This document shows positions 26,335 through 63,725 of a stretch of 64,000 bases of DNA, in pieces (position 1 is the first letter of the stretch; every line of letters starts with the position of its first letter). Under the pieces are notes generated by a model. That model ran no database searches. It saw only the letters and a program-made list of their open reading frames with translations, and was not told where the DNA came from. A program made the position numbers and the translations under genes. The stretch comes from Myxococcales bacterium (GTDB lineage Bacteria > Myxococcota_A > SURF-8): positions 1 through 64,000 of the forward strand of contig QZKR01000010.1 of assembly GCA_003598065.1 (NCBI GenBank), read 5' to 3'.

Positions 26335-26705
26335 GGCCGAGGAGGGGCGGCGGCCGCCGGATGATTTCATCCGGAGGAAAGTCCGGGCTCCATAGGGCAG
26401 GGTGCTGGCTAATGGCCAGCGGGGGCGACCCCAGGGAAAGTGCCACAGAAACGATAGCGCCCGGCAGGTCCGGGCAAGCGTGAAATGGTGCGGCAAGAGC
26501 GCACCGGGACCGCGGCGACGCGGACCGCAGGGTAAACCCCACCCGGAGCAAGACCGAATAGGGATGCGTCTCCCCCATGGGGAGTAAGGACGGCCCGTCC
26601 GAGCATTCGGGTTACGGTCGCTGGAGACCGTCGGCAACGACGGCCCTAGAAGAATGGTCGCCCGCGCTTCGCGCGAACAGAACCCGGCTTACGACCTCCT
26701 CGGCC
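26335..26705 (+). ncRNA. rnpB: RNase P RNA (bacterial class A)
   Basis: The RNA component that cleaves tRNA 5' leaders. GGCCGAGGAGG at the start pairs with CCTCCTCGGCC at the end to form P1. In between are the conserved elements GAGGAAAGTCCGGGCTCC, ACAGAAACGATA, CGGCAAGAGCGCACCGGG, GGGTAAACCCCACC, GAGCAAGACCGAATAGGG, CGAGCATTCGGGTTACGGTCG and AGAAGAATGGTCG, all in the correct order. The length of about 371 bases is normal. It stands alone between two minus-strand genes. Confidence 0.97.
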
Positions 26706-26714
26706 TTCCTTTGT

Positions 26715-39054: not shown

Positions 39055-39236
39055 AAAAAGACCCGCCTTGGTCGTGTGAACGGTTGGCTTTAGCCCATGT
39101 ATATCTAGATACTGGGTCCAACTGTTGCGCTTCAGGCTTCCCATCGAAGGGCTTGCTCACCGCGCATGGAAGCTGGTCCCGGGCTAAATGATATAGAGCT
39201 TGAAGCGTTCCGCCCATCACGCGCCAGGCAGGACGA
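39055..39236 (-). ncRNA. ssrS: 6S RNA
   Basis: The minus strand holds a roughly 180-base RNA that aligns by eye with E. coli 6S RNA. GCGCGGTGAGCAAGCCC corresponds to the conserved GGTTGGTGAGCATGCTCGG region, GGGAAGCCTGAAGCGC to GAGAAGCCTTAAAACTGC, and a hairpin (CCCAGTATC...GGGCTAAAGCC) to the GAACCAAGG...ACAGCC segment. CCTGCCTGG near the 5' end pairs with CCAAGGCGGG at the 3' end to form the closing stem, and GTGAGC pairs with GTTCAC. The RNA ends in GGGTC followed by five T. 6S RNA binds the housekeeping RNA polymerase in stationary phase. The 5' end is approximate. Confidence 0.8.
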
Positions 39237-39340
39237 TTTCATCCTAGCGTCCCCCGCCGCGCCCGTCAAGAGGCATCGCCCGGGTTTTCTCCCCGCAGGG
39301 GAACGAGAATTCGTTGTCAGCGAAAAGTTGGACGGCGGCG

Positions 39341-45521: not shown

Positions 45522-45593
45522 TCCTCATAGAAGCGGCAAAAGGGCGGCAAATGTCGTCCGATGACAGGCGAAATAAAAGGAAGGAGTCCGGTC

Positions 45594-48500
45594 ATGACTA
45601 CCAACACGTTGCCCCGAAGCTGGATCTGGCTGGCGTCGGTCTTTGTCGCCGCCATGCTTCTGGTCGGCCTCCCGGGTTGTGGAGGGGGGAGCGAAGCGGA
45701 AGGGCCCATGCGGCTGGACGTAGATAGTCTCTTGGACATCCCTGAAATCACGGAGAATTCTCCCCGACTGCGCGTCCTGCTGATGGACAAGCCGATCGAT
45801 GGGATCGAGAGCGTCTGGCTGACCATCAGCGCGGTCTCGGTTCACTCCGTGACCGGCGAGTGGATCGATATCTCGGTTGACAACCAGACGATCGACCTGC
45901 TCAACCTGCGCTATGGCGTGACCCATACGCTCGGCATCGGCACCATCCCCGCCGGCTCCTACGATCAACTTCGCCTGATCGTGACCGACTCTTCCGTGGT
46001 GGTCGATGGCCAGACCCACGATTTGTTCATTCCTTCCGGGGCCACTTCCGGCGTGAAGCTGCATTTCGAATTCACGGTTTCCGACGACCAGCTCTCGACG
46101 ATGCTGATCGACTGGGACGCTTCGGAGTCGATTCACTACAGCCCCGGCGCGGGCTACATCATGACTCCCGCGATCCACGTTTACACTTACCGTTCGGAGC
46201 CGGCCGATGACGCGGCTCCCGGCGCTCCGACGGTGGACTCGCCGACCCATCCCAACCAGAACATCTGGTCCGCGGTCGATACGGCCACCTTCCATTGGAC
46301 CGCCACCGACGACATCGGCATCGACGGTTTCTCTTTCAGTTTCGATCAGGTTCCCGACAGCGTTCCCGATGCGGTGAAGGACAAAACCATCGAAGACATG
46401 CAGCCCGCCCAGTGCGAGCCGTCGATGTATCCGCTCGATCCGGTATGCACGAGCTTCGAACCCTCGGTCGCGTTGCAGGGTTCGCTCGTGACCATTTACG
46501 GCGCCAACTTCGGCCGCTGGTCGTCGGTCATTTCGGTGTTGATTGGCGACCAGGCGGCGCAAATTGTCTCGGTCGAACCGACCAAGGTCGTCGCCCGCGT
46601 GCCCGATGGGATCGGCTCCAAAGCCGTTCAGGTCGTCACTCCCAAGGGCGCCGTCACCTGCGGGCAAAATCTGGAAGTCGTCACCGACTCTTCCTTCTGT
46701 CCGGACGGCGAGTATGAGGTTGGCAAGGGTTTGTTGGGGCAGGTTTTCCCGGTGTGCCCGACCAACCACGATTGGTCTTGCCGGCTGCCCGACTTCAGCA
46801 CCATGGGCGACCCGCAAAGCACGATCGTCGCCTGCAAGCTGGACGTTCCCAACCACTACTTCAGCGAGGGTTTCCCCGGCGTCGATTCGACGCTCGTCGA
46901 GTGGTTCGGCATCCACTTCGAGGCCACGCTGATCGCCCCCGTCAGCGGCGCCTACTACTTTAAAGTTACCTCCGACGATGGTTCCAACCTTTATGTGGAT
47001 GGCACAAAGGTCGTGGATAACGACGGCGTCCACGCCGTTTCCAGCGTGACCGGCAGTATCTACCTCACCGCCGGCAACCATGACTTTGTCGTCGATTACT
47101 TCCAGGGCCCCCGTTGGTACATCGCCTTGCAACTCTACTGGAAGAAGCCGGGCGACAGCGCCTACTCGCTGATTCCCAAGGACAATTTCCTTCTGCCCGA
47201 ACGGCAGGTGACGGAAACGGCCGTGGAGCCGCAGTGCGCCTGCGACGGCCACGGCCCCGGCGCGTTCCCTTACAGGGCCTACTACGTCAAAGACGGCGAC
47301 GGCATGATGTACCGCCTCGACATGTACGACCAGTCGCCGGCCCCGGTGGCGATCGGCGTGCTTAAAGGCCCCGGCGACCGCGTACTGACCGATTTCGAAT
47401 CGCTGGCCATCGTCGATGGGGTGTTCTACGGCGTCAACAACGACGGGCACAGCGAGATCGCCAACCGGCTCTATAAAATCAAAGTGGATCAGGCGGCGGG
47501 CGGGATCGTGCCGACCGAAGTCGTCGGACAGCTTTTGGAAGGCACGACCGTCATTCAGGATGTGGACTGCCTCGCCGCCGCGCCCGACGGCACGCTTTAC
47601 GGCATCTCGACTCACTCGAACGCTCTTTACACGATCGATAAAGAGACCGCCGCGCTCACCGAGGTAATGAGTGTCACCGGAGAGATCGAGGGCTGCGCTT
47701 TCGGTCTCACGGGCTACCTGTACGGACTGGACAACAGCGGCAATTCGTCCGACCTGGTGGCGATCGATCTGCAGGCGGAAACGATTGAAAAGGTCGCCGA
47801 CCTGCCCTACGACACCGACGTCGAGGCGTTGGGCTGGCATCCGGACGGCTTCCTCTATATCGGCATCGACAACAGCAGCAACAGCTACCCGGCCGTCGCC
47901 AAGATCCGCCCGACCGACGGCGTGATCGTCGAGGTTCTCAATCCCACCATTAAGATCGCCGCCATCGAGGGTCTGGATTTCAATTACGTGGCGGAGGAGC
48001 AGGCCTGCACCTGCGTCGTCGATGTGGACGAGCGCTACTCGCTGGCCGCCTCCGGCTCTTTCACCATCACCGACGCCAACAGCGACGGCTTCTCTGAAAC
48101 GCTCTCCTTCGACGCCGCCCAGGCGCTTCTGGCGGTGGTTCCGAGCGGCGATCCCCTGGCCGCCTATGTCGGTACGGATGCGACCTGCATGCTGCCCAAG
48201 GCCCGCGCCGTGCTCTCCGGCATCGAGTTGAACAAGAACGACGTCGTCGGCGGCCGCCTCGGCTTCAACACGACGACGCTGCCCGACGGTTTCGGTCTGG
48301 AAATCCTGAACGGCGAGTGCGAATACGATCAACTCTTCGAAGCCGACATGGAAGTGGACGGCGAATATCTTTTCACCGAAGAGAAAACCGGCTCGCTGCG
48401 CGTGCGGCTGAGCCACCCCACCCTGAGCAACACCATTCTTTCTACGTTCGTCGAGTCGATCGCCGCGGCCGACGAGCCGAGCCTGATCGAGATCGGCCTG

Positions 48501-51296
48501 TCCATCGCCAGCGGTTCGATCAAGACCAAGGTTCTGACCGGTCTGGCCGTTTCCGGCGCGTCGGCCCTGGTGCTCAGCCCCGGCTTGAATCTCGTGGGCG
48601 AGAGCGGTTCCGGTCTGCCTCCCTGCCCCGATCCGTCGATTCACACTCCGACCAAGGAAGGTACGATCACCTACCACAACGTGAACGACGGCGTGTGGTA
48701 CTTCCACGTCCGCGCCGTGGACGACGCGGGCAACTGGGGTCCGGTGTCTCACTATCGCGTGAAGATCGACGCCACGCCGCCCGATCCTCCGGCGATCAGT
48801 TCGCCGACCCACGTCTCGCAGGAGATAACCTACGACAACCCGGACGCCGTGCTGCAGTGGCTGGAGAACGATCTGTCCGGCATCGTCGGCTACAGCATCG
48901 CCTTCGATGACGAGCCGATCACGGAACCCGACGAAACGATCGACACCGACGAGGCGACGCGCAGCTACAACGACCTCGCTTCGCAGACCCACTGGATGCA
49001 CGTGCGCGGCCGCAACGGCAGCGGCCTGTGGAGCCGGACGGGTCACTTCCGGCTGAACGTGGACGAGAACAAGCAGGAACTGCCGCCTCCGCCGCCGGGA
49101 TTCATGGGCAAGGATCACGTCGTTTATCAGATGGGCAGCCCGTCCGGCCACACCGACCGGTTCTCCGACGAAAAGCAGCACTGGGTGGAGCTTAACGCCT
49201 TCCTGATCCAGCAGAAGGAAATCACCAACCAGCAGTACAAAGCCTGCGTCGATAAATACAGCGATACGGTGCAAACCTGCGGCGCCGACGGCGAATGTCC
49301 CGAAAACCACTACTGCAACAGCGAGGGCCGTTGCGCCACCGGCTGCGAGTTCGCGCCCAAAACGGGAGCCAACTATTACAAACCGAGCTTCAAGGATCAC
49401 CCGGTGACCATGGTCGATTGGCGCGACGCGCAGAAGTACTGCGTCGCCAACGGCATGCGTCTGCCGACCGAGGCGGAATGGGAGTACGCGGCGCGCGGCG
49501 ACGACGCCGACCGTTACCCGTGGGGCGATCAGTACAGCGCGACGCGCGCCAACGGCGTGGACATGCGGCTCTCGACCACCACGCCGGTCGGCTCCTTCGA
49601 CGGCAACACCCAGGGTTATGAGGACGGCTCCGCCTGCGATCAGTTCACCTGCATCCACGACATGGCGGGCAACGTCGAGGAGTGGATGAACGACTACTAT
49701 CACACCTACCCCGACGCGGAGAGCGCGGACGACGCCGTTCAGTTCCCCGACATCGATGAAACGGCGGAGTGCAACGCCACCTGTCAGGGCGACGCGACCT
49801 GCCTCACTTACTGCGGCATGAAAACGACGCGCGGCGGCTCCTTCCTCTCCGAGGACGGCGAACTGCGCGTCTATTTCCGCAACAAGCTGCCGCCGGCGAT
49901 GAAGGCCGACAACGTGGGTTTCCGCTGCGCGTTGGATTGGAACTGGGAGGACCAGGCCGGCCTGGTCGAAATCTGCGACGGCGTGGACAACAACGACAAC
50001 GGCCAGATCGACGAGCAGTATGCGAACCACGACCTCGACCTGCTCGCCGACTGCGTTGACACCGACGACGACAACGACGGCGTTCTGGACGACGCCGACA
50101 ACTGCCCCGAACTGGCCAACGCCGATCAGTACGACCCGGACATGGATGGTTACGGCGAAGTGTGCGACCCGAACGGCGAGGATCTCCCCGCCCTCTACGA
50201 CGGCCTTGTGCGGCCCTGGGACCTCGTGATCGACGAAGACGGCTCGGTCTACGTGGCCGGTTCGATGGACGGCTTCGATCTCTCCTCCTCGGACAACAAC
50301 GAAAAAGGCGTGGTCGTTTCCATCAGCTCCATGGGATACCGCACCGGCCAGGTGACGCTCGCGGAGGCGACCTACGCCAACACGGCGTGGGAGGATTTCC
50401 GGCCGAACAAGATCTCCCTCTCGCCGACCGGTTACCTCTACGTCACCGACTCCAAGGGCTCCTACGACGACGGCATCTGGAAGATCGCGCGCCGCGAGAA
50501 CGACAATCAGCTCGGCCAGTCCGTCGCTCCGGACGGCCGCGACGGCGAGACGGGCGGCACGCAACGGTTCTGGTGCGGCGACGACGACCATCGCGGCATT
50601 GACAACACCTCGGGAAGCGTCGTCGATCCGGACGGCGAATGGCTCTACGTCACGCGCGGCGCGGCGAAGGAAGTGCGGAGGTTCCGGCTGTTGGAGAACG
50701 GCGACGTCTCCAGCGAGCAGGGTCCGCTCGGCGAAGAGGTGGCCGTGCTCAGCTCCGCCGTCTCGGCTCCGGCGGTCAGTCCGGAAGGCGACCTCTTCTA
50801 TCTGCGCGAAGGCAAGCTGATGCGCCAGACGCGGTGGGCCGACGGCCTGCGGGAGCCCGAAGCGCTCTCCGACGCCCTGGCCTTCGTCAACGGCGTCGCT
50901 CTGGAATTCGACGCCCTGGGCAACCTTTACGTCCTCTCCGATCGCGGCACGAGCAACGTCTGGCCGTTCGTCGGTTCGGCCGAGGATCAAGTCGTGCCGG
51001 CGGACAGCGGCTACATCTCGAAAGTCCCGAAGGCCGTGCTCGACACGCTGAACGTCTCCAACATCGTCACTCACGGCGACGAAAGCCGGCAGATGATCGT
51101 TTACGGCGGCCCGGCGTCGCACGAGATCCGCTTCTCGAACAAGCGGCTGGCCTCGCCGATGGGCTTCGACATCGACCGTCAGACGGGCGAGATTCTCGTG
51201 GCCAACACGGACCGGGACGAGGTGGTGATTCTCAACTTCTCGCGGGGCCAGGCCGAAGCGATCGAGATGGCCGGCTCCTACCAGGGCCTCGAGTAG
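45594..51296 (+). CDS. Mosaic lipoprotein with DUF4382, IPT/TIG, PA14, FGE-sulfatase and thrombospondin-3 domains
   Basis: A 1900-residue surface lipoprotein; the ATG at 45594 has GGAAGGAG seven bases upstream and the lipobox is LPGC. Domains in order: DUF4382-like (about 45-195), an Ig-like and IPT/TIG region (205-370), PA14-like (400-540, [17 protein letters not shown]), a beta-propeller-like region (560-820), Ig-like repeats (1010-1150), a formylglycine-generating-enzyme fold (1170-1450, [42 protein letters not shown]), a MopE-like [14 protein letters not shown], calcium-binding type-3 repeats ([17 protein letters not shown]) and a C-terminal NHL-like propeller. I cannot confirm the FGE catalytic cysteines, so this part may be structural. 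Regulation is probably by the adjacent sigma-54 activator. Confidence 0.88.
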
Positions 51297-53861: not shown

Positions 53862-55337
53862 TCAGGCAGACCGGGAAGCCGCAGGGACTTGTCCCTCCTG
53901 CAGCGCGGCGAGGAAGCCGTTTACCCACTCGTACACGTTCTTCTGGCGCAGGTGGTTGCGCAGGTGGTTCATCCTCCGCAGCTGCTCTTCCATCGGCATG
54001 TGGAATGCCCCGTAAATGGCGTCGGCCACGCCGTCCAGGTCGAACGGGTTGACGAGGATGGCGCCCTCCCTGAGCTGTTCCGCCGCTCCCGCGAACTCAC
54101 TCAGAATCAACACCCCCCCGTCCGGCGAGGAGGCGCAGTACTCCTTGCTAACCAGGTTCATGCCGTCCCGGATCGGCGTGACCAGGGCGATGTCGGCCGC
54201 CCGATACATGGCCGCCAATTCCAGGCGGGAGAGGGAGCGGAAAAAATAATGGATGGGAACCCAGCCGGGGCGCGTGAACTCGCCGTTGATCTGCGCCAGA
54301 AGCTGTTCCAGCTCCCGCTTCATCGCCTGATATTCCGGCACTTCGATGCGGCTGGGGACGACGACCTGGACCAGGACCACCTTTCCACGAAGGTCGGGGT
54401 ATTTCTTGAGACAGGTCTGGAAGGCGCGGAAACGCGGCACCACGCCCTTGGTGTAATCGAGCCGGTCGAGGCCGAGGATGATTTTTTGATCGGGGTATTT
54501 GTCCTGGAAAATCGCCGCCGCCTCTTGGGTCGATGGGAATTTGGCCAGCCTGTTGAATTCCTGAAAATCGATGCTGATCGGGAAGTGTTGAACGAGAATC
54601 CGCCGTCCCCGGAGCAAGATCGTATAATGCGAGGAGCCTGGAAAAATCTGGACGTCCGGCAGCATTTCGCGCACGCAGTGGATGAAGTTGGCGAAGTCCC
54701 GCCGTGTCTGGAAGCCGACCAGGTCGTAGGCCAGGAAAAATTCGATCAGTTGCCGCCGCCAGGGCAGGCGGCGGAAAAGGTCGCTCGTCGGAAAGGGGAT
54801 ATGGAGAAAGAAGCCGATCCGGCCGATATGCCCGCCTTCGCGAAGCCGGCCGCCCAGCGGTATCAGATGATAGTCGTGGACCCAGATCGGCGAGGCCGAA
54901 TCGATCGCTCCCGAGAGGGTGGAGGCATAACGCTGATTGGCTTTCAGATAGGATTCCCAGTAAGTCTTCTCAAAGTGGGTCCGCCCGAGGAGGTCATGGA
55001 AGAGGGGCCACAGGGTCTCGTTGGAAAAACCGAGATAAAAAAGCTCCACTTCCTCCTTGCTGAGCGTGACGGGCAGAAGCCTGAAGCCGGCCTGCTTTTC
55101 GGCTTCGCCGAACAATCCCTCCAGCGGCGCTTCTTCTTCCTCTGTCGTCCCGCTCCAACCGCACCAGAGACCGTTGCGATTGCGCAGCACCGGCGCCAGC
55201 GCCGTGACCAGGCCCCCGGAACCGGGGCGGACGGTCCACTCCTGCTCCTGTTTCGCCACCGTCACCGGCAGGCGGTTGGCCACCACCACCAGGCGGTCGG
55301 CCGCCGCCTTCAGTCTTTCCGCGCGATCTCGTCCCAT
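53862..55337 (-). CDS. otsA: Trehalose-6-phosphate synthase (GT20)
   Basis: A 491-residue GT20 glycosyltransferase joining glucose from UDP/ADP-glucose to glucose-6-phosphate. It has [90 protein letters not shown] and [15 protein letters not shown]. The last genes overlap: the ATG at 55337 lies 28 bases inside the phosphatase gene with GGAG ten bases before it. Some GT20 enzymes make glucosylglycerol phosphate instead, but the adjacent phosphatase and synthase genes favour trehalose. Confidence 0.93.
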
Positions 55338-56092
55338 CGTTTTAAAAACTCCAATAATCGATCCGTCGTGTTTATCCAATAGGAAGCAAAGGTGTCTCTT
55401 TGTTGCGCATTGACGAGTATTCCATATCCCTTGTTCCTCAACACTTGAAAAGCGTCCTCATCGGTCCGGTCGTCGCCCAGAAAAACGGCGAGGGTCTCCG
55501 GCGCGGACTCGGCGAGCAATTCTTCGACGGCCGTTCCCTTGGTTCGGGAAGGAACGCGAAGCTCGATCCCTCCGTCGAATTCGAGCAGTTCAAGCAGGCT
55601 AGGCGACGTCAACGGTCGCCAATGAGCATATCCCCAGTTCCGCATGCGTTCCACTTCGACGGCCGGTTTCCCTCTCCAGTGAAGAGCCAAACCGGCGGGT
55701 TTCGCTTCCAGGTTTTCCGACATTTCCTTCTCGGCCAACAGCTTCGCGCGATTCAACCGCTCCGGCGCCCCCGGCGGGAGCGGAGGCGCGACTTTCTCGC
55801 CGCCGGCCGTACGCCTTTCCCAGCCGTGGCTGCCCCACAACTCCAGGGGCGGACCGATGGGCAGCAGGCGCTCCACGTCGGCGAGCGGGCGTCCGCTGAC
55901 GATCGCCAGGCGCGTTTCGCCTTGCGCCAGAATGCCGCGAAGCAGACCTTCGACGCCGGGATGCGGCCGGGCCAGATCGCGTTCGACGCAAAACGGCGCG
56001 AGCGTGCCGTCGTAATCCAGCATCAGCAGCCGGCGCGGCGCGGCTTTCACGCGCGCGAAGAAAGCGTCGTCCGGAAAAGCGAGGGCCAGCAT
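55310..56092 (-). CDS. otsB: Trehalose-6-phosphate phosphatase (HAD family)
   Basis: A 260-residue HAD phosphatase. The nucleophile motif is LMLDYDGTLAPF, motif II is AIVSGRPLADVERLL, then GSHGWERRTAGG and KGTAVEELL, and motif IV is FLGDDRTDEDAFQVLR. It hydrolyses trehalose-6-phosphate made by the next gene. It starts six bases after the GT4 glycosyltransferase gene. Confidence 0.93.
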   Translation of the reverse strand: MLALAFPDDAFFARVKAAPRRLLMLDYDGTLAPFCVERDLARPHPGVEGLLRGILAQGETRLAIVSGRPLADVERLLPIGPPLELWGSHGWERRTAGGEKVAPPLPPGAPERLNRAKLLAEKEMSENLEAKPAGLALHWRGKPAVEVERMRNWGYAHWRPLTSPSLLELLEFDGGIELRVPSRTKGTAVEELLAESAPETLAVFLGDDRTDEDAFQVLRNKGYGILVNAQQRDTFASYWINTTDRLLEFLKRWDEIARKD

Positions 56093-56098
56093 AGCCTC

Positions 56099-57331
56099 CT
56101 ATCCCGCCATGAGCCGATCCGTCATTCCCAGCTTGAAACCCATCATCAGCGTCAGATACTCCCGCAAATGCCGGGAGAGCAGAAAATTCTCGCGGACAAA
56201 CTCGCGTCCCTTCCGCCCCATCGCCTCGCGGAGCGGGCGGTGCTGAAGCAGATAGCGGATCCAGTGCGCCGCCCCTTCCGGCGTATGAACGAGGTAGCCC
56301 GTGTGGTGGGGAATCACCTGCAGCTTGATGCCGCCCACGTCGCCGCCGATCACCGGCTTGCCTTTCCACAACCCCTCCGTGACCGTGAGGCCGAAGCCTT
56401 CCTTGAGGGATTTCTGGATGACGATGTCGCTGCCGCGCTGCAAGGCGTTGATGGTGCGATGGGCGTCGCCCGGCAAAAGCAGGATGTGGATGTCAGGGTC
56501 GTTTGCGGCGCTTTGGCGAACCTCGCTGAGCACCGCTTCGCCTTCCGGGTCGTCGCTGGCGCCGCCGCCGGCCAAGACGAGCTGGACCGGCATGAATTGC
56601 TTCACCAGCCGATAAGCCGCGATGACGCCGAGCGGGTCTTTAAAGCGATCGAAGCGGGAGATCTGGGTAAGGATCGGCCGCGCGGGATCGAGAGAAAAGG
56701 ATTCCAGCGCAAGGCCGATTTCTTCCTGGGGCAGATCGCAGTTTTTCTCGCTCAAGGGATCGATGCTCGGCGCGATCAAGAACTGCGGGTGATTTACCGG
56801 CTGGGCGAACTGGACCATCGAGAAAACGCTGGCGTCGTAGCGCTGAACGACCGGCGCCAGATATTTCCAGATCGGCCGATGCGGCCGGCTGGCGTCGATG
56901 TGGCAGCGCCAGAACCAGCGGCCCTTGCGGTTGGGGCAATGCAGAATCAGGCGCGCCGGCTGAGGATCGTGGATGAAGACGAAATCGGCCTCCTCCAGCA
57001 GCGGCCGAAGCCGCGCGGCGTTGCTTTCGCTCGTCTCCTCGTAAGCGCGAAGCGCCGCGGGCGACGCATCGATCGGATTGCCTTGAAGCGCATTGTGGAA
57101 AATCTTGGTCAGGGCGAAGAACGGTTCGTCGCCCTCGATCACCTCCCAGGAGGCGTCGATCCCCAGGTCGCGCTTGAGCGGGATCAGCCAGGAGAGGATT
57201 TCGGCGACCCCTCCGCCCTGCCGGGTCGAGTTGACGTGCACGACCTTCGCGCCTTTCAGATGCTTCGCCAACTGGCGGAGCATCCGCAGCGTTACGATTC
57301 CCGTCACTTTTTTGTAGGCGTCAAGCTTCAT
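56099..57331 (-). CDS. TreT-like trehalose-synthesising glycosyltransferase (GT4)
   Basis: A 410-residue GT4 enzyme. Signatures are VVHVNSTRQGGGVAEILSWLIPL, FIHDPQPARLI, WRCHIDASRP, the nucleotide-sugar region ISRFDRFKDPLGVIAAYRL, QKSLKEGFGLTVTEGLWKGKPVIGGDVGGIKLQ, and GRKGREFVRENFLLSRHLREYL. These fit trehalose glycosyltransferring synthase (TreT) or trehalose phosphorylase families, which the sequence alone cannot separate. It would give a second route to trehalose next to OtsA/OtsB. The ATG at 57331 overlaps the previous gene by 11 bases. Confidence 0.85.
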   Translation of the reverse strand: MKLDAYKKVTGIVTLRMLRQLAKHLKGAKVVHVNSTRQGGGVAEILSWLIPLKRDLGIDASWEVIEGDEPFFALTKIFHNALQGNPIDASPAALRAYEETSESNAARLRPLLEEADFVFIHDPQPARLILHCPNRKGRWFWRCHIDASRPHRPIWKYLAPVVQRYDASVFSMVQFAQPVNHPQFLIAPSIDPLSEKNCDLPQEEIGLALESFSLDPARPILTQISRFDRFKDPLGVIAAYRLVKQFMPVQLVLAGGGASDDPEGEAVLSEVRQSAANDPDIHILLLPGDAHRTINALQRGSDIVIQKSLKEGFGLTVTEGLWKGKPVIGGDVGGIKLQVIPHHTGYLVHTPEGAAHWIRYLLQHRPLREAMGRKGREFVRENFLLSRHLREYLTLMMGFKLGMTDRLMAG

Positions 57332-57995
57332 GTGTTTTCGCCCCGCCGTCATTGTTGCGGAGGCTATCCTCCATATTGACCAGGCGCTCCTTCAACTCCG
57401 CAAGCGAAACCAACGAGCGATGCAGTTCCTTCAACGGGGCGAGATACATCTCTCCCTTTTCCCCCTCGCCCTCCAGCCAGACGGTGAAGTCGTCGGTGCG
57501 TCGTTTGTGGCGCCGGCGCGCTTCGATGAAGTGGTAGAAGATGCTGCCCAAGGACAGATCGCGAATGCCATCCAGGAATTTCTCCGGCCCATGTATGACC
57601 TTGCCGGCGTCGAACACGACCGTCACGGCCTTGGTGAAATAGAATTGATGCTCGGGCCGCGCCCAGGGAATGAAATGAACCTCGCTGAGCCGGTCGTCCA
57701 GGATGTCGAGAAGGTAGGCGCGCAGCGATTCGATGTCCTCGAAGGCGTAAGGATCGATGATGCTCAGGCGTTCCGCCAGTACGGGGTCATGAAGCTCGCG
57801 GGCCGACCAGATCGCGAAATCGCTCTGGTAGACGGGATCGTCGAAGGAGGGGCGCAGCAGCGTTTCGTAGAAATGATGGTAAATCGAGGCGGCTTCGCAG
57901 CGCGAAATCCCCTCCCGAAGCTCCCGCAGGTTGATCGCCTGAATCTTCGTGGTTTGCACGATCAACGTGCAATCCTTGACGTGAAAGTGGCTCAT
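57321..57995 (-). CDS. DUF5752 family protein of the trehalose operon
   Basis: A 224-residue cytoplasmic protein. Recognisable stretches are FHVKDCTLIVQTTKIQAINLRELREGI, SIYHHFYETLLRPSF, DFAIWSARELHDPVLAERLSIIDPY and GSIFYHFIEARRRHKRRTDDFTVWL. The family is often found next to trehalose glycosyltransferases, as here, but its activity is not known to me. The start is coupled to the ClC stop (TGATG), with AGGAG seven bases upstream. Confidence 0.8.
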   Translation of the reverse strand: MSHFHVKDCTLIVQTTKIQAINLRELREGISRCEAASIYHHFYETLLRPSFDDPVYQSDFAIWSARELHDPVLAERLSIIDPYAFEDIESLRAYLLDILDDRLSEVHFIPWARPEHQFYFTKAVTVVFDAGKVIHGPEKFLDGIRDLSLGSIFYHFIEARRRHKRRTDDFTVWLEGEGEKGEMYLAPLKELHRSLVSLAELKERLVNMEDSLRNNDGGAKTHEA

Positions 57996-59854
57996 CACCG
58001 TACTCCTAGCGATGCGTCAGTCTCCTCCGTCCCGGGGATTCCCCCATGTTTGATGCGGGAATACTGCCGCGAGTAATGAAGCATGATATCGGCCCCGGTT
58101 ACAATGCCGCACACCGTCCGGGGATCGTCGTCGGTCGTCACCAGAAGCTCGTCCACGTTGAGATTGGCCATGACGTTCAGCGCTTTTTGCACCGGGTCGT
58201 TCAGGCGGACGGTCGCTCGATCCGGGACGATGATGTCCTTGGCCAGCGTCTGGCTCGCCTCCTCCGGCGGGAGGTGCAGCGCGGTCGTCAGGTCGTTGAG
58301 CCTGAAGAATCCCAAAAGCTTCCCCGTCGGGCTCACGACGGGAAAGATGCGCTGGCTGGAGCGTGTCGCCTGATCGAATACCTGCGAGATCGGCAGCGCT
58401 TCCGGAATGGCCATGAATTTTCTCGATGCTTTAAACACCTCCGAGACCAGCGAGGAGGAGAGGATTTCGGGGGCGTATTCGCCGAAGTGCGCGGGCGAAG
58501 CCAGGCGGCTCGATACCTGACTTTTGTAAAGCGTCCATGGCCTGCCGACCAGGAAGGCCACGGCGCAGACCCACATCGAGGGGATCAACAGTTCATAGTT
58601 TCCCGTCAGCTCGCTCACCATGATCAACGTGGAAAGCGGCGCGTTGGCGGCGGCGGCGAAAAAGCCAGCCATGCCGACAATCATGAACGCCGCCGGATGC
58701 GGCGCAAGAACCGGCGAAAGCGCATGCATGGCCAATCCCACCGCCGCGCCCAGCGTGCCGCCGATGACCATGGAAGGACCGAAAACGCCGGCGCTGCCGC
58801 CGGAGCCGATGGTCAGGGAGGTGGTCAGGATCTTCCCCAGGGCCACCAGCAACAAAAACCCGATCCCCAGCGCGAGACCGTCGCCCGTAAGAATTTTCTG
58901 GAGAATGCCGTAACCGGTGGAGAGGACCGCCAGGGATTCCTGGTTTTGCGTCAAGGTCCAGAGCCCCAAACCGATCAGACCCGTCAGAAGCCCGCCGACA
59001 GCGGGCTTCAAATACGGCGAGACAGGCAGTTTGTCGAAAAAGCGGGTAAGACCGTAAAAGGTGTTCACGTAGAGAAGAGCGCCGACGCCCACCACCAATG
59101 CCAAAGCCAGGTAGCCGATCAGCTCGACGGGGCTGGAGAAACCCCATTCCGGGACCACTCCGAAAATCGGCCCGAACCCGAACCAGCTGCAATAGATGGA
59201 GTAGCTCAGAATGCTGGCGATGATTCCGGGAAGAATTACCTCCGATTCCAATTCCATGCCGGAGTAAAGCACCTCCGCCGCAAACAACGCCGACGCGAGC
59301 GGAGCTCTGAAGATGGCGCCTATGCCGGCCGCCATGCCCACGGCCACCAGCATGCGTTGCGTTTTTGCGCCCAGGCCGAAACGCTGCGCGATGAAGCTGC
59401 CGACGCCGGCGCCGATTTGGGCGATGGGGCCTTCGCGGCCGCCCGATCCGCCCGCGCTCAAGGTCACGACCGATGCGAACAGTTTGACGATCGGCACCCG
59501 CTGCCGGATCTGCCCCTGCTTGCGATGGTAGGCGTCGATGGCCGCATCCGTGCCGTGTCCCTTCGCCTCCGGCGCAAAGCGATTCACCAGATAGCCGGCG
59601 ATCAGGCCGCCGGCGGCGGGAAGAAGCAGGATAAGCCACGGGAGAACCTGTTCGCGCCGAGGCAGCTTGAGAAGCGGATGCTCGCCGGCCGGGTGGCCGG
59701 CGGAAACGCCGGCGAGAGATTCCAGCAAAAACATGCTTGTCGTTTGAAGCAGGAATTGGAAAACCACGGCCGGCATGCCGACCGTCACGCCCACCGCCCC
59801 GCCGACCAACAGCCATTTCCACAAACTCGGAAAGTTGAAATGGCGATTGAACAT
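57995..59854 (-). CDS. ClC family chloride channel/transporter with two CBS domains
   Basis: A 619-residue membrane protein. The anion-pore motifs GSGGREGPIAQIG (with the gating glutamate) and GSGGSAGVFGPSM are present, with the usual helix pattern through residue 430. Two CBS domains follow (about 485-610, IFPVVSPTGKLLGFFRLNDL and ELLVTTDDDPRTVCGIVTGADI), which often sense ATP or ionic strength. The ATG at 59854 has GAGGAG nine bases upstream. It lies 30 bp after the TetR/KamA-like gene and is coupled to DUF5752, so it probably shares the promoter at 62420. Confidence 0.93.
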   Translation of the reverse strand: MFNRHFNFPSLWKWLLVGGAVGVTVGMPAVVFQFLLQTTSMFLLESLAGVSAGHPAGEHPLLKLPRREQVLPWLILLLPAAGGLIAGYLVNRFAPEAKGHGTDAAIDAYHRKQGQIRQRVPIVKLFASVVTLSAGGSGGREGPIAQIGAGVGSFIAQRFGLGAKTQRMLVAVGMAAGIGAIFRAPLASALFAAEVLYSGMELESEVILPGIIASILSYSIYCSWFGFGPIFGVVPEWGFSSPVELIGYLALALVVGVGALLYVNTFYGLTRFFDKLPVSPYLKPAVGGLLTGLIGLGLWTLTQNQESLAVLSTGYGILQKILTGDGLALGIGFLLLVALGKILTTSLTIGSGGSAGVFGPSMVIGGTLGAAVGLAMHALSPVLAPHPAAFMIVGMAGFFAAAANAPLSTLIMVSELTGNYELLIPSMWVCAVAFLVGRPWTLYKSQVSSRLASPAHFGEYAPEILSSSLVSEVFKASRKFMAIPEALPISQVFDQATRSSQRIFPVVSPTGKLLGFFRLNDLTTALHLPPEEASQTLAKDIIVPDRATVRLNDPVQKALNVMANLNVDELLVTTDDDPRTVCGIVTGADIMLHYSRQYSRIKHGGIPGTEETDASLGVR

Positions 59855-59887
59855 CACCAGCAGCTCCTCGCGTCGTCTCGGTTCGCT

Positions 59888-62356
59888 TCAGAAATAGTAC
59901 CAGATGCTCTCGTACTCTTCGGGTTTCTCGCCGATGGATTGCAGCCGCATCAAGTAATCCAGAATCGGCGCGTCGTCGCCGACGTAAGTGTCCTGGGGCG
60001 TGATTTTCTTCTCCCAGGGGTGAAACTCGTACACCCGCGCGCCGTTGGGACGCAATGAAATAAGGTCGCGATGCTGCCAGGAGTTCAAGTAGTTTTTCCC
60101 GAGCCGCGGCACGTTGTAAACGGCTTCGTCCGTCCTGGCCAGTCCCGGCAGGAGGCGGGCTTCCTCCTTCTGCTCCTGGAGCATGCGCGCCAGCGGAACG
60201 CGGTAATCGGCGGTTTCTTCTTTCCCCTTGGGGTAAAAGGTGTAATAGGGGTCGATGCCGCAGCGCCGCAGAAGCCTCCTCAAAGCCGCCGCCTCGAAAC
60301 GGCGCGACACGTAAAACGTGTAAACAAGCTGGTTGTAAACCGGGACGCCGTGCGTTCGCAGCAGGCTGACGGCGCGAACCATTTCAGGAGTCGCTTCGTA
60401 AGGATGTTCGACGTGCGTGACCAGGCAAATCTCGCGCCGTCCGGGAATCCGGTAAGACCCGAGCAGCCGCGCCAGAGCGGGCGTGATCCGCATCGGCAAG
60501 GTCACCGGCGTGCGCGTTCCGACTCGGATGCGTTCCACGTGCGGCAGGGACGCCACCTGATCGAGGATGGATTTCAGCCGTCCGTCGGACAGGATCAGCG
60601 GATCGCCGCCGGTGACGAGAACCTCGTGGATGGCGGGGTGCTCCGAAAGCCAATCGATGGCCTCTTTGATTTTTCCCTTGGCGGCCAGCGAACCTTTCTC
60701 CAGCGGTTCGTTGATCTCCCAATTGCGCTGGCAGTAAACGCAGATCTGCGGGCAGGTGTTGAACGGTTTAAGGATGGCGATGGCGACATAGCGCCGAGTG
60801 ATCAGATCCACGGGAGAAGTGTCCATTTCTCCCATGAAATCCTCAACGCCCCGCCGACGCTTGAAGCTGTCCAGGTAGTATTGAGGAGGGACGACCTGAG
60901 CCCGAATGGCATGGTCTCGTCCGGCGCCGGGGTCTTCGTCGAACAGCGAGGCGTAATAAGGAGTGACGCCGAATGGGATGCCTCGTTGGCGCGCAGTATC
61001 GATCCGCTTCCGTTCATCTTGCGTGAGGCAGGCCATGCCTCCAAGCCCCTCCGCGTCGCGGGCGATGTGGCGGAGCTGCCAGCGCCAGTCCCGCCATTCC
61101 TCCTCTTCCCCCGCCAGCCTCGATAGAATGGCATGTCGTCTTGCGGCTCGGCGATTGGCGGCTTCAGCGCTCAATCCATCCTCGTAACGCGCCATCCAGT
61201 CGCTCATGACCGCCCCGAGCCGATCCAACTCCGCCGAACGGACCAAAGCCGCCTCGCGGCCGGCGAGCGATGCCGAAAGAGCCAGGCTGTCCCCACCGTG
61301 CAGCCGCACGCGCCCTTCGATCCCATACACGAGGTGGCCGAGTTCCGCCCAGAAGGCAGGGGACAGGTTGGAGCGGCGCACGCCTTGAGCGGCATCGACC
61401 ATCGTCGTCAGCACGCTGAATCCGGAAAGCCTCTCGCTGCGCGAGTGCAGCAATCCGCGCCAGGCGCGCGCGCAATCGCGGACGATGACGCGGTCCGACT
61501 CGTGCGTCTCGTTTCCGTCGCTGTACGTTTCGAAGTGGCGCTGGTTCACCCGATTCAGCAGTTGCTGGCGAGCGTCCTCGATGCTTGACGCCGCGCTCAG
61601 AAGCGACCGCCATTCTTCCGCGATCGCTACAAAGCGTTCCTGATTCCAATCGCTCAAATCGGAGATGGCGTAAAAGCTGGATTCGACGACTTCTGGCGCG
61701 GCGTCGCGCTTTGCCGGTACGGCCGGCTGTTGTTCGTCGAGCCGGTTGGAAACGGGAGACAGCCGCTGAAAGAGGTTCTCGAATTCGATGGCGTCGGGAA
61801 AGAGGGGGCCGCTATTCTCCCCGAGAATGAAGTCGTAAGACAACGCTCCGGCGATAGCCCCCGCCAAAAACCGGGCCAAGGTCTGCCTCGGCGGCTCGCG
61901 TCCGAAACCGCCCTCCGTCGAAACAGGAAGAAACTCGGCGATGGCGTCCACGTAGCGTTTGAATTCTTGTCGGATGGGGTTTCCATCCGGCTTGGCCATC
62001 TTCAGCCAGCCGCGGGCTTGGTGGAAAACAAGCAGGTTTTCCGGATGCTCCCGGAAAAATTGCAGGTGCCGCTGAAACAGGATACGGCTGGAAGCGGCCG
62101 GCGAAGCGGAATCGTCCGGCGACTCCTTGCCAAAGGAAGTGATGAGCTTGTCCAAGCCTTCCTGAAGCACCGCTGCAATCAGCTCCTCGCGCGATTTGAA
62201 GTGGTTGTAAAAAGTCCCTTTGCCGAGATCGGCCTCCGAAGTGATGTCTTCGATGCTGACTCCATACAGCCCATGCTGAGCGTAGAGTCGCTTTGCCGCC
62301 CGGAGCAGTGCATTCCGAGTAGTTTCTTTTTTTCGCTCCAAACGATCTCCCATCAT
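59888..62356 (-). CDS. Fusion of a TetR-type regulator with a KamA-like radical SAM protein
   Basis: An 822-residue protein. Residues 5-60 are a TetR DNA-binding domain (ALLRAAKRLYAQHGLYGVSIEDITSEADLGKGTFYNHFKSREELI), followed by a TetR ligand-type helical region to about 200 and a helical linker. From about 390 it resembles lysine 2,3-aminomutase (KamA): the iron-sulfur motif CPQICVYC (535, 539, 542), VLVTGGDPLIL, RVGTRTPVTLPMRIT and CLVTHVEHPYEATPEM. In place of the PLP-lysine motif PGGGGK it has VPRLGKNYL (Lys near 754), so the reaction is uncertain. A palindrome overlaps its promoter, suggesting autoregulation. It heads the trehalose train. Confidence 0.88.
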   Translation of the reverse strand: MMGDRLERKKETTRNALLRAAKRLYAQHGLYGVSIEDITSEADLGKGTFYNHFKSREELIAAVLQEGLDKLITSFGKESPDDSASPAASSRILFQRHLQFFREHPENLLVFHQARGWLKMAKPDGNPIRQEFKRYVDAIAEFLPVSTEGGFGREPPRQTLARFLAGAIAGALSYDFILGENSGPLFPDAIEFENLFQRLSPVSNRLDEQQPAVPAKRDAAPEVVESSFYAISDLSDWNQERFVAIAEEWRSLLSAASSIEDARQQLLNRVNQRHFETYSDGNETHESDRVIVRDCARAWRGLLHSRSERLSGFSVLTTMVDAAQGVRRSNLSPAFWAELGHLVYGIEGRVRLHGGDSLALSASLAGREAALVRSAELDRLGAVMSDWMARYEDGLSAEAANRRAARRHAILSRLAGEEEEWRDWRWQLRHIARDAEGLGGMACLTQDERKRIDTARQRGIPFGVTPYYASLFDEDPGAGRDHAIRAQVVPPQYYLDSFKRRRGVEDFMGEMDTSPVDLITRRYVAIAILKPFNTCPQICVYCQRNWEINEPLEKGSLAAKGKIKEAIDWLSEHPAIHEVLVTGGDPLILSDGRLKSILDQVASLPHVERIRVGTRTPVTLPMRITPALARLLGSYRIPGRREICLVTHVEHPYEATPEMVRAVSLLRTHGVPVYNQLVYTFYVSRRFEAAALRRLLRRCGIDPYYTFYPKGKEETADYRVPLARMLQEQKEEARLLPGLARTDEAVYNVPRLGKNYLNSWQHRDLISLRPNGARVYEFHPWEKKITPQDTYVGDDAPILDYLMRLQSIGEKPEEYESIWYYF

Positions 62357-62389
62357 TTTTCCCCGACAAAGGCAACGCAGATGACCGTA

Positions 62390-62405
62390 TGGTCAAAGTT
62401 GACCA
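62390..62405. promoter_or_regulatory. TetR-type operator
   Basis: TGGTCAAAGTTGACCA is a perfect 7-2-7 palindrome, embedded in a larger GACC-rich inverted repeat (62383-62412). It lies 34-49 bp upstream of the start codon and covers the -10 region of the promoter at 62420. Confidence 0.75.
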
Positions 62406-62425
62406 AACGACCATATCATTGTCAA
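62396..62425 (-). promoter_or_regulatory. Promoter of the TetR/KamA-like gene
   Basis: On the minus strand a perfect TTGACA (62420-62425) is followed after 17 bases by TCAACT, a weak -10 lying inside the operator palindrome. A bound TetR dimer would block polymerase. Confidence 0.55.
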
Positions 62426-62742
62426 TCCGACGCGTCAATAGGAAGCAATTATTATGCTTGTAATCACTTGAGATTTTTTTGTTTAGGCGTTTTTGGCAAT
62501 CATGGCCAACAAGAAAAGCCAGACGATTTTCTGCTTTATTTTTACCATTTAAGTTTGAATTGAAGAAACAAACCGCGTCTCATCGGTGAAGCAATGCCCC
62601 CTGGAAGCGGGCGAGGACGCTCGACTCCAAGCGCCTCCCGCCTATCTTGATAGAATAGAGGCCCAGGAATTGGGGTTTTGTTCGTTTTTTTATCGGTTTT
62701 TTCCCGGGGAACCGGCCATGAACGACACACCGTCAAGCTTCT

Positions 62743-62772
62743 TTGACTTTGCCACGCTCTTGTCGGTAGAAT
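62743..62772 (+). promoter_or_regulatory. Promoter of the PAS-GGDEF gene
   Basis: TTGACT at 62743, an 18-base spacer and TAGAAT at 62767. A start near 62779 would exclude an upstream ATG at 62718 and support translation from 62811. I see no gene in 62430-62740. Confidence 0.5.
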
Positions 62773-62810
62773 CCAAAACGAAACCGGCTATCGCGACAGG
62801 GGGTCCGACC

Positions 62811-63725
62811 ATGAACGCCACGACGGACCGCGAGACTCAACTGTATCGAAGCGTTCTGGACACGCTCCACGACGGCGTGTATTTCGTCGATGCCGAGCGC
62901 CGCATCACCTATTGGAACGAAGCGGCGCAACGCATCTCCGGCTACCACGCCGATGACGTGATGGGACGCTGCTGCGCCGACCACATTCTTGTCCATGTCA
63001 ACCGCGAGGGTGAAGCGTTGTGCGAAACCCGCTGCCCGTTTACCGCGGCGATGCGCGACAGGGCCGTGCGCGAGGAGACGGTTTACCTGCACCACAAGCA
63101 CGGCCACCGCGTCGCCGTCGCCGTCCGCGTCTCGCCGCTCTACGACAACTCGGGCCGAGTCATCGGCGCGGCGCAGGTGTTCACGGAAAACACCGCCGAA
63201 CAGTCCCTGGCGGAGGAGAATCAGCGTCTCCGGGCGTTGGCGCTGATCGATCCCCTCACGGAAATCGGCAACCGCCGCTATCTGTTCAAAGCCGTAGCCG
63301 ACGTGCTCAACGAGTCCAGCCGCCTCAACTGGCCCTTCGGCGTGATCTTCGCCGACATCGATTCCTTTAAAGGCATCAACGATCGTTTCGGCCATCCGGC
63401 GGGCGACCGCGTTCTGAAGATGGTCGCCGGCACGCTGGCCGGCGGCGTGCGTTCCTACGACCTGGCCGGTCGCTGGGGCGGCGAGGAGTTTGTCGTACTC
63501 GTCAAACGCGTGGCGCGGGATCAGGTCCGCGCCATCGCCGAAAAACTGCGCGTCCTGGTGGAGCGCTCCCATTTGGACCTCGATCGGACGACGTTGCGCG
63601 TTACGGCTTCCTTTGGCGCGACCGCCGCACTGCCGGGCGACTCACCGGATTCTATCGTCGCCCGCGCCGACCAGCTTATGTATCGAGCCAAACAAGAGGG
63701 TCGCAACCGGGTCGCCATCGACTGA
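62811..63725 (+). CDS. PAS-GGDEF diguanylate cyclase
   Basis: A 304-residue cytoplasmic protein. A PAS domain (about 10-125, SVLDTLHDGVYFVDAERRITYWNEAAQRISGY) contains a cysteine-rich insert (CCADHILVHV, LCETRCPF), then HHKHGHRVAVAVRVSPLYD. A short coiled coil leads to a GGDEF domain with DPLTEIGNRRYL, DIDSFKGINDRFGHPAGDRVL and the active-site GGEEF in RWGGEEFVVL, all intact, so it should make cyclic di-GMP. No RxxD inhibitory site is evident. The ATG at 62811 follows GGGGG; an ATG at 62718 would add 31 residues. It counterbalances the HD-GYP protein at 25097. Confidence 0.92.
   Translation: MNATTDRETQLYRSVLDTLHDGVYFVDAERRITYWNEAAQRISGYHADDVMGRCCADHILVHVNREGEALCETRCPFTAAMRDRAVREETVYLHHKHGHRVAVAVRVSPLYDNSGRVIGAAQVFTENTAEQSLAEENQRLRALALIDPLTEIGNRRYLFKAVADVLNESSRLNWPFGVIFADIDSFKGINDRFGHPAGDRVLKMVAGTLAGGVRSYDLAGRWGGEEFVVLVKRVARDQVRAIAEKLRVLVERSHLDLDRTTLRVTASFGATAALPGDSPDSIVARADQLMYRAKQEGRNRVAID

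Follow-up and report, generated by a model that had tools for sequence, protein, structure and literature searches.

A TetR regulator fused to a KamA-like radical-SAM aminomutase at the head of a putative osmoprotectant operon in a Myxococcales bacterium

Within a window of 64,000 nucleotides (contig QZKR01000010.1 of a Myxococcales bacterium) we found a gene that joins a TetR-type regulator and a KamA-like radical-SAM enzyme, the latter full-length at ~590 aa, in a single polypeptide. Its open reading frame (59888–62356, minus strand, stop codon included) begins with ATG, encodes 822 amino acids and contains no internal stop. Judging from the sequence and its neighborhood, we consider it a little better than an even bet that the protein is an autoregulated osmolyte aminomutase-repressor heading an osmoprotectant operon. 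A literature search for TetR–KamA fusions returned none.

Profile searches placed TetR_N (PF00440, E 7e-14, above the cut-off) at aa 17–63, Radical_SAM (PF04055, E 8e-9) at aa 530–646 and the KamA family (TIGR00238, 318 bits, cut-off 199) at aa 417–753, so that the TetR and radical-SAM fusion described in the initial annotation is real and lies on one uninterrupted reading frame. The TetR module (aa 1–200; 61757–62356, minus strand) consists of the helix-turn-helix, at aa 17–63, and a full ligand-binding/dimerization domain. In the AlphaFold2 model (mean pLDDT 87) aa 1–199 form a complete, all-helical TetR protein, and Foldseek aligned this N-terminus with the complete structures of many TetR proteins (E 1e-4, target TM ≤0.73); model and fold matches together point to the C-terminal helical ligand/dimer domain typical of the family. 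The module is followed by a linker (aa 201–235; 61652–61756, minus strand) that is predicted to be disordered, with pLDDT <50 for aa 199–228, and by a helical extension (aa 236–415; 61112–61651, minus strand) that aligns in the ~600-aa relatives of the enzyme. The remainder, a confidently modeled radical-SAM/PLP aminomutase module (aa 416–822; 59891–61111, minus strand), has lysine 2,3-aminomutase (PDB 2a5h, E 5e-21) as its top Foldseek match; in a separate match to the 2a5h chain the similarity begins at aa 418, leaving the helical extension outside it. Structural prediction of the domain interface, as the initial annotation had suggested, gave 30 disordered residues between the halves and no rigid interface.

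The same fusion occurs in a second genome, Deltaproteobacteria bacterium RIFOXYD12_FULL_57_12 (locus L028), where it encodes 823 aa and is 61% identical over aa 4–822. Identity between the two proteins is 48% in the TetR module, 44–46% in its ligand-binding domain and 67% in the enzyme. A lost stop codon or sequencing error is ruled out by this second full-length fusion, and separate TetR and radical-SAM genes in all relatives, the other outcome that would have undone the initial annotation, are likewise at odds with it. We give practically no credence to the idea that an assembly or sequencing error joined two genes: its rarity alone, in two genomes, speaks for such an artifact, but an independent assembly holds the same order at full length and 61% identity, both TetR and enzyme are conserved, and GC3 is of the coding type across the junction.

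Among the best 80 of 345 confirmed relatives from a genome scan, L028 alone is fused and the rest encode the enzyme alone; the expectation that relatives would share the fusion therefore held for this one genome and failed for all others inspected. The enzyme was found in 10 of 379 sampled genomes of the window's phylum, fused solely in the window's own genome, and in 37 of 395 genomes of the phylum of L028, fused solely in L028. When all open reading frames of the relatives' loci were searched with the TetR module, just the two fusions matched, inside the enzyme gene, and no TetR partner gene was found among the neighbors searched around the unfused relatives. Three family members with other N-terminal fusions (L091, L094 and L105) gave no TetR match, and the extensions of L094 and L091 look like non-coding read-through. 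In the enzyme tree, the two fused proteins fall in a four-member clade (SH-aLRT 96) with two unfused Myxococcota proteins, L029 and L030. Since these unfused members share a clade with both fusions, the fusion arose late, either once with subsequent loss or twice, and the enzyme tree fits either course.

The region upstream of the fusion gene carries an exact palindrome with arms TGGTCAA and TTGACCA (TGGTCAAAGTTGACCA, 62390–62405), which lies 4 bp downstream of the −10 element of a predicted sigma-70-like promoter (62410–62438, minus strand; TTGACG-17-TATGGT, with TG before the −10). As the initial annotation had it, the palindrome is perfect and overlaps the predicted promoter; it forms the center of a longer, imperfect 16+16 palindrome (62381–62414, 81% complementary) and is our candidate operator. 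In about 5% of shuffles, 7-bp arms turn up in the 100 bp upstream, a modest signal (P about 0.05). At the same place, the L028 fusion has a different perfect palindrome with 9-bp arms (ATTTGTGAC/GTCACAAAT), seen in 0.3% of shuffles (P about 0.003), and upstream arms of at least 7 bp were present in 7/79 unfused relatives. Because operator-like palindromes sit at both fused genes, autoregulation of the fusion operon through the candidate operator is likely. The 5.4-Mb assembly contains one exact copy of the site and no copy with one mismatch, and matches with two mismatches are about twice as frequent as for a reversed-pattern control. A regulon of operator copies was discarded as an explanation, as beyond the site itself the genome has none with fewer than two mismatches.

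The fusion gene heads a tight operon on the minus strand. Thirty bp downstream lies a gene for a ClC chloride channel/antiporter with a CBS domain (57995–59857; PF00654, E 1e-88), followed, with a 4-bp overlap, by one for a DUF5752 protein (57321–57998; PF19027, E 6e-68) and then by genes for a TreT-like trehalose synthase of glycosyltransferase type (56099–57352; PF21269, E 3e-54), the trehalose-6-phosphate phosphatase OtsB (55310–56092; PF02358, E 6e-21; TIGR00685 over cut-off) and the trehalose-6-phosphate synthase OtsA (53862–55379; PF00982, E 1e-138), for which a later start is likely. The gaps from the fusion to OtsA are, in order, 30, −4, −32, 6 and −70 bp. Together, the ClC, DUF5752 and trehalose genes, which the initial annotation overlooked, suggest a link to osmotic stress. 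Divergent from the operon is a gene for a PAS-GGDEF diguanylate cyclase (62586–63725, plus strand).

The osmotic surroundings recur elsewhere in the family. At the L028 fusion, ClC is divergent upstream, while DUF5752, TreT, a GH13-type protein and a GH57 protein are encoded downstream; in L031, L062 and L087 the unfused gene likewise has ClC, DUF5752 and TreT in its vicinity. Across the enzyme family, ClC was counted six times within 2.5 kb and once beyond 4 kb, and MscS four times and not at all, in 351 kb of near and 394 kb of far sequence; these counts, from a single-sequence search with a chosen family list, are indicative. Further direct neighbors include Na+/H+ antiporters, OtsAB and TrkA, and most members of the family stand without a trehalose/ClC neighborhood. 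A class I/II aminotransferase gene adjoins the enzyme gene in five Desulfobacterota (L054, L064, L067, L068 and L078), and its product may provide the amino acid or consume it. β-Glutamate is a known osmolyte and compatible solute, which glutamine synthetase turns into β-glutamine (PMC1224877), and a glutamine synthetase gene, whose product could make β-glutamine, is located beside or near the unfused enzyme gene in L029, L034 and L056. Counting against our reading, NMR is reported to have ruled out an aminomutase route to β-glutamate in methanogens (PMC1224877). Na+ riboswitches have been described upstream of eam, for β-glutamate, and of ablA (PMC9337991), and we rejected riboswitch control of the relatives after Rfam searches of about 50 loci found no match upstream of the enzyme gene. 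The only riboswitch-class RNA detected, an nhaA-I RNA in L042 (2752–2807), lies some way off, about 5 kb ahead of the enzyme gene.

The enzyme half has all the marks of the KamA family: a TIGR00238 score over the cut-off, the CxxxCxxC motif and the PLP lysine. The radical-SAM core named in the initial annotation is present as C535-C539-C542, with R544 two residues on (60731–60754, minus strand), and the PLP-lysine motif, VPRLGKNYL preceded by N748, holds K754 (60085–60117, minus strand). C535, C539, C542, R544, K710, N748 and K754 are found in 65/65 aligned rows. The initial annotation was right that VPRLGKNYL is there, but the motif counts as "modified" only when compared with lysine 2,3-aminomutase: N[VIL]PxLGKN is family-wide, with 64 intact copies among 84 anchors, and 13 of these copies share the R of the fusion. 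A degenerate or dead PLP site is ruled out, the motif being retained with its lysine throughout the family. Profile alignment to 2a5h (numbering from the chain) paired R544 with Arg134, K710 with Asp293 and R686 with Cys268, and stopped short of the PLP motif, where we used a lysine-2,3-aminomutase-like homologue from the same genome (L002) instead. L002 has VVDAPGGGGK where the family of the fusion has VYNVPxLGK, which places N748 at the position of Asp330 and makes K754 the PLP lysine. We take Arg134 of 2a5h to bind the carboxylate, Asp293 and Asp330 to bind lysine, and Lys337 to be the PLP lysine. Because the CxxxCxxC motif is invariant, as are the PLP lysine and the arginine for the carboxylate, the enzyme half looks catalytically active, although not as a lysine mutase. 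A 571-aa family member in L015 (1498–3213, minus strand), 30% identical over aa 255–822, is without the CxxxCxxC and PLP motifs; it adjoins a lysine-2,3-aminomutase-like gene (L015, 242–1294) with an intact motif and is a possible dead paralogue.

Lysine is disfavored as the substrate, and was the wrong test ligand to propose in the initial annotation, given that invariant Lys and Asn stand where lysine 2,3-aminomutase has its two lysine-binding aspartates. This exchange suggests that the substrate is acidic; the enzyme half is probably an acidic-substrate aminomutase, with glutamate to β-glutamate as our best guess. Lys and Asn presumably also occupy the two positions in characterized glutamate 2,3-aminomutase, in which case K710 and N748 would agree with Eam. 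The fusion scored higher with the glutamate 2,3-aminomutase profile (TIGR04368, 217 bits) than with the lysine profile (179 bits), but both scores are far under the respective cut-offs of 650 and 525 bits; the protein is accordingly filed neither as Eam nor, with K710 and N748 in place of Asp293 and Asp330, as AblA. It is possible, if somewhat doubtful, that the enzyme makes another β-amino acid, from aspartate or a further acidic substrate, or works on a non-osmolyte substrate altogether. A class I/II aminotransferase is indeed the commonest direct neighbor (6/101), and most family members lie in mixed neighborhoods; against this, osmotic neighbors recur across phyla.

What would control DNA binding can be read in more than one way. 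The TetR pocket might take an amino-acid or amine ligand of its own, e.g. glutamate, β-glutamate or a polyamine, with the enzyme half a passenger and the fusion coupling expression only, a reading we put forward tentatively. It would fit the setting of the nearest unfused TetR relative, which lies in a gabT/gabD-like and decarboxylase operon (L153, 957–8059), and of two others (L169, 4247–5352, and L170, 1728–2869) that by eye stand beside short S-adenosylmethionine decarboxylase (speD)-like genes, yet the latter genes gave no family match and the ligand domains are 19–32% identical to those of the three TetRs, too low for a ligand to be transferred. Alternatively, in line with the sensing design proposed in the initial annotation, the state of the enzyme half, whether cluster redox, SAM or substrate occupancy, could pass to the TetR half and set its DNA binding. 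The covalent linkage is retained in two lineages, the catalytic residues are all intact, and PutA and BirA provide precedent for a catalytic state governing DNA binding; nevertheless, the TetR half has a complete ligand-binding domain of its own, 30 disordered residues separate the halves, and the lack of a TetR partner among the neighbors searched means that no ancestral coupling was seen. We therefore regard such sensing, which is unsupported for turnover, SAM and cluster alike, as unlikely, and as slightly less likely still its more specific form, in which the aminomutase itself is the osmotic or redox sensor and occupancy of its active site or cluster switches, through the fused TetR, an operon for β-glutamate, trehalose and chloride. 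A conventional small-molecule ligand for the TetR half is equally possible, because that half is complete with its own ligand domain and is joined by a disordered linker.

Comparison with known systems sets the fusion apart from each of them. It shares with lysine 2,3-aminomutase (KamA/AblA) the radical-SAM barrel, the CxxxCxxC motif, the carboxylate arginine and the PLP lysine, but differs in K710, N748 and R686, in the ~180-aa helical N-terminal region and in the TetR module. Eam, the top-scoring substrate-specific profile, likewise has a different N-terminal region and no fused regulator. TetR/AcrR one-component repressors have the same helix-turn-helix, all-helical ligand domain and adjacent palindrome, whereas the fusion runs on through its linker into the enzyme. 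PutA, BirA and NadR are enzymes that double as repressors; they too carry a DNA-binding domain and an enzyme on one chain and control their own pathway, as we propose for the fusion, but they use other DNA-binding folds and enzymes, and in them catalysis has been proven to be linked to binding. The abl operon (ablA-ablB, N-ε-acetyl-β-lysine) and the Na+-riboswitch ablA/eam genes employ a radical-SAM aminomutase for salt-regulated β-amino-acid osmolytes (PMC1224877, PMC9337991). The fusion operon, by contrast, lacks an acetyltransferase gene, has linked trehalose and ClC genes, and would be controlled by the fused repressor instead of RNA.

Elsewhere in the window, RNase P class A RNA (26337–26707) and 6S RNA (39056–39237) were the only RNA families found with Rfam. 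A 1911-aa putative lipoprotein (45561–51296, plus strand) shows, by eye, repeats and a formylglycine-enzyme-like segment, and an antisense open reading frame of equal length is its coding-frame shadow. In L028 (276–3743), a nucleoside-phosphorylase-like gene precedes one for a large P-loop NTPase whose C-terminus is formylglycine-enzyme-like; by eye, the pair looks like a defense type.

In the aminomutase-repressor model that we favor, the N-terminal TetR module would repress the operon of fusion, ClC, DUF5752, TreT, OtsB and OtsA genes by binding the palindrome at its own promoter, and the C-terminal module would act as a radical-SAM/PLP 2,3-aminomutase on an acidic amino acid, most likely converting L-glutamate to β-glutamate. 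Salt or osmotic stress would lift repression, whereupon the cell would make β-glutamate and trehalose and handle chloride. By tying the level of repressor to that of enzyme, the fusion would place the pathway under negative autoregulation. With a radical-SAM enzyme and a repressor on one polypeptide, a single purified protein could serve to study how the genes of an enzyme that is oxygen-sensitive and consumes SAM are controlled. Were the enzyme half to govern DNA binding, this would be, to our knowledge, the first radical-SAM enzyme known as a transcription factor of such kind. The uncharacterized ~600-aa KamA family occurs in Myxococcota, Desulfobacterota, Spirochaetota, Planctomycetota, Zixibacteria and other groups; its members probably make β-amino-acid osmolytes from an acidic substrate, which offers a testable bacterial route to β-glutamate.
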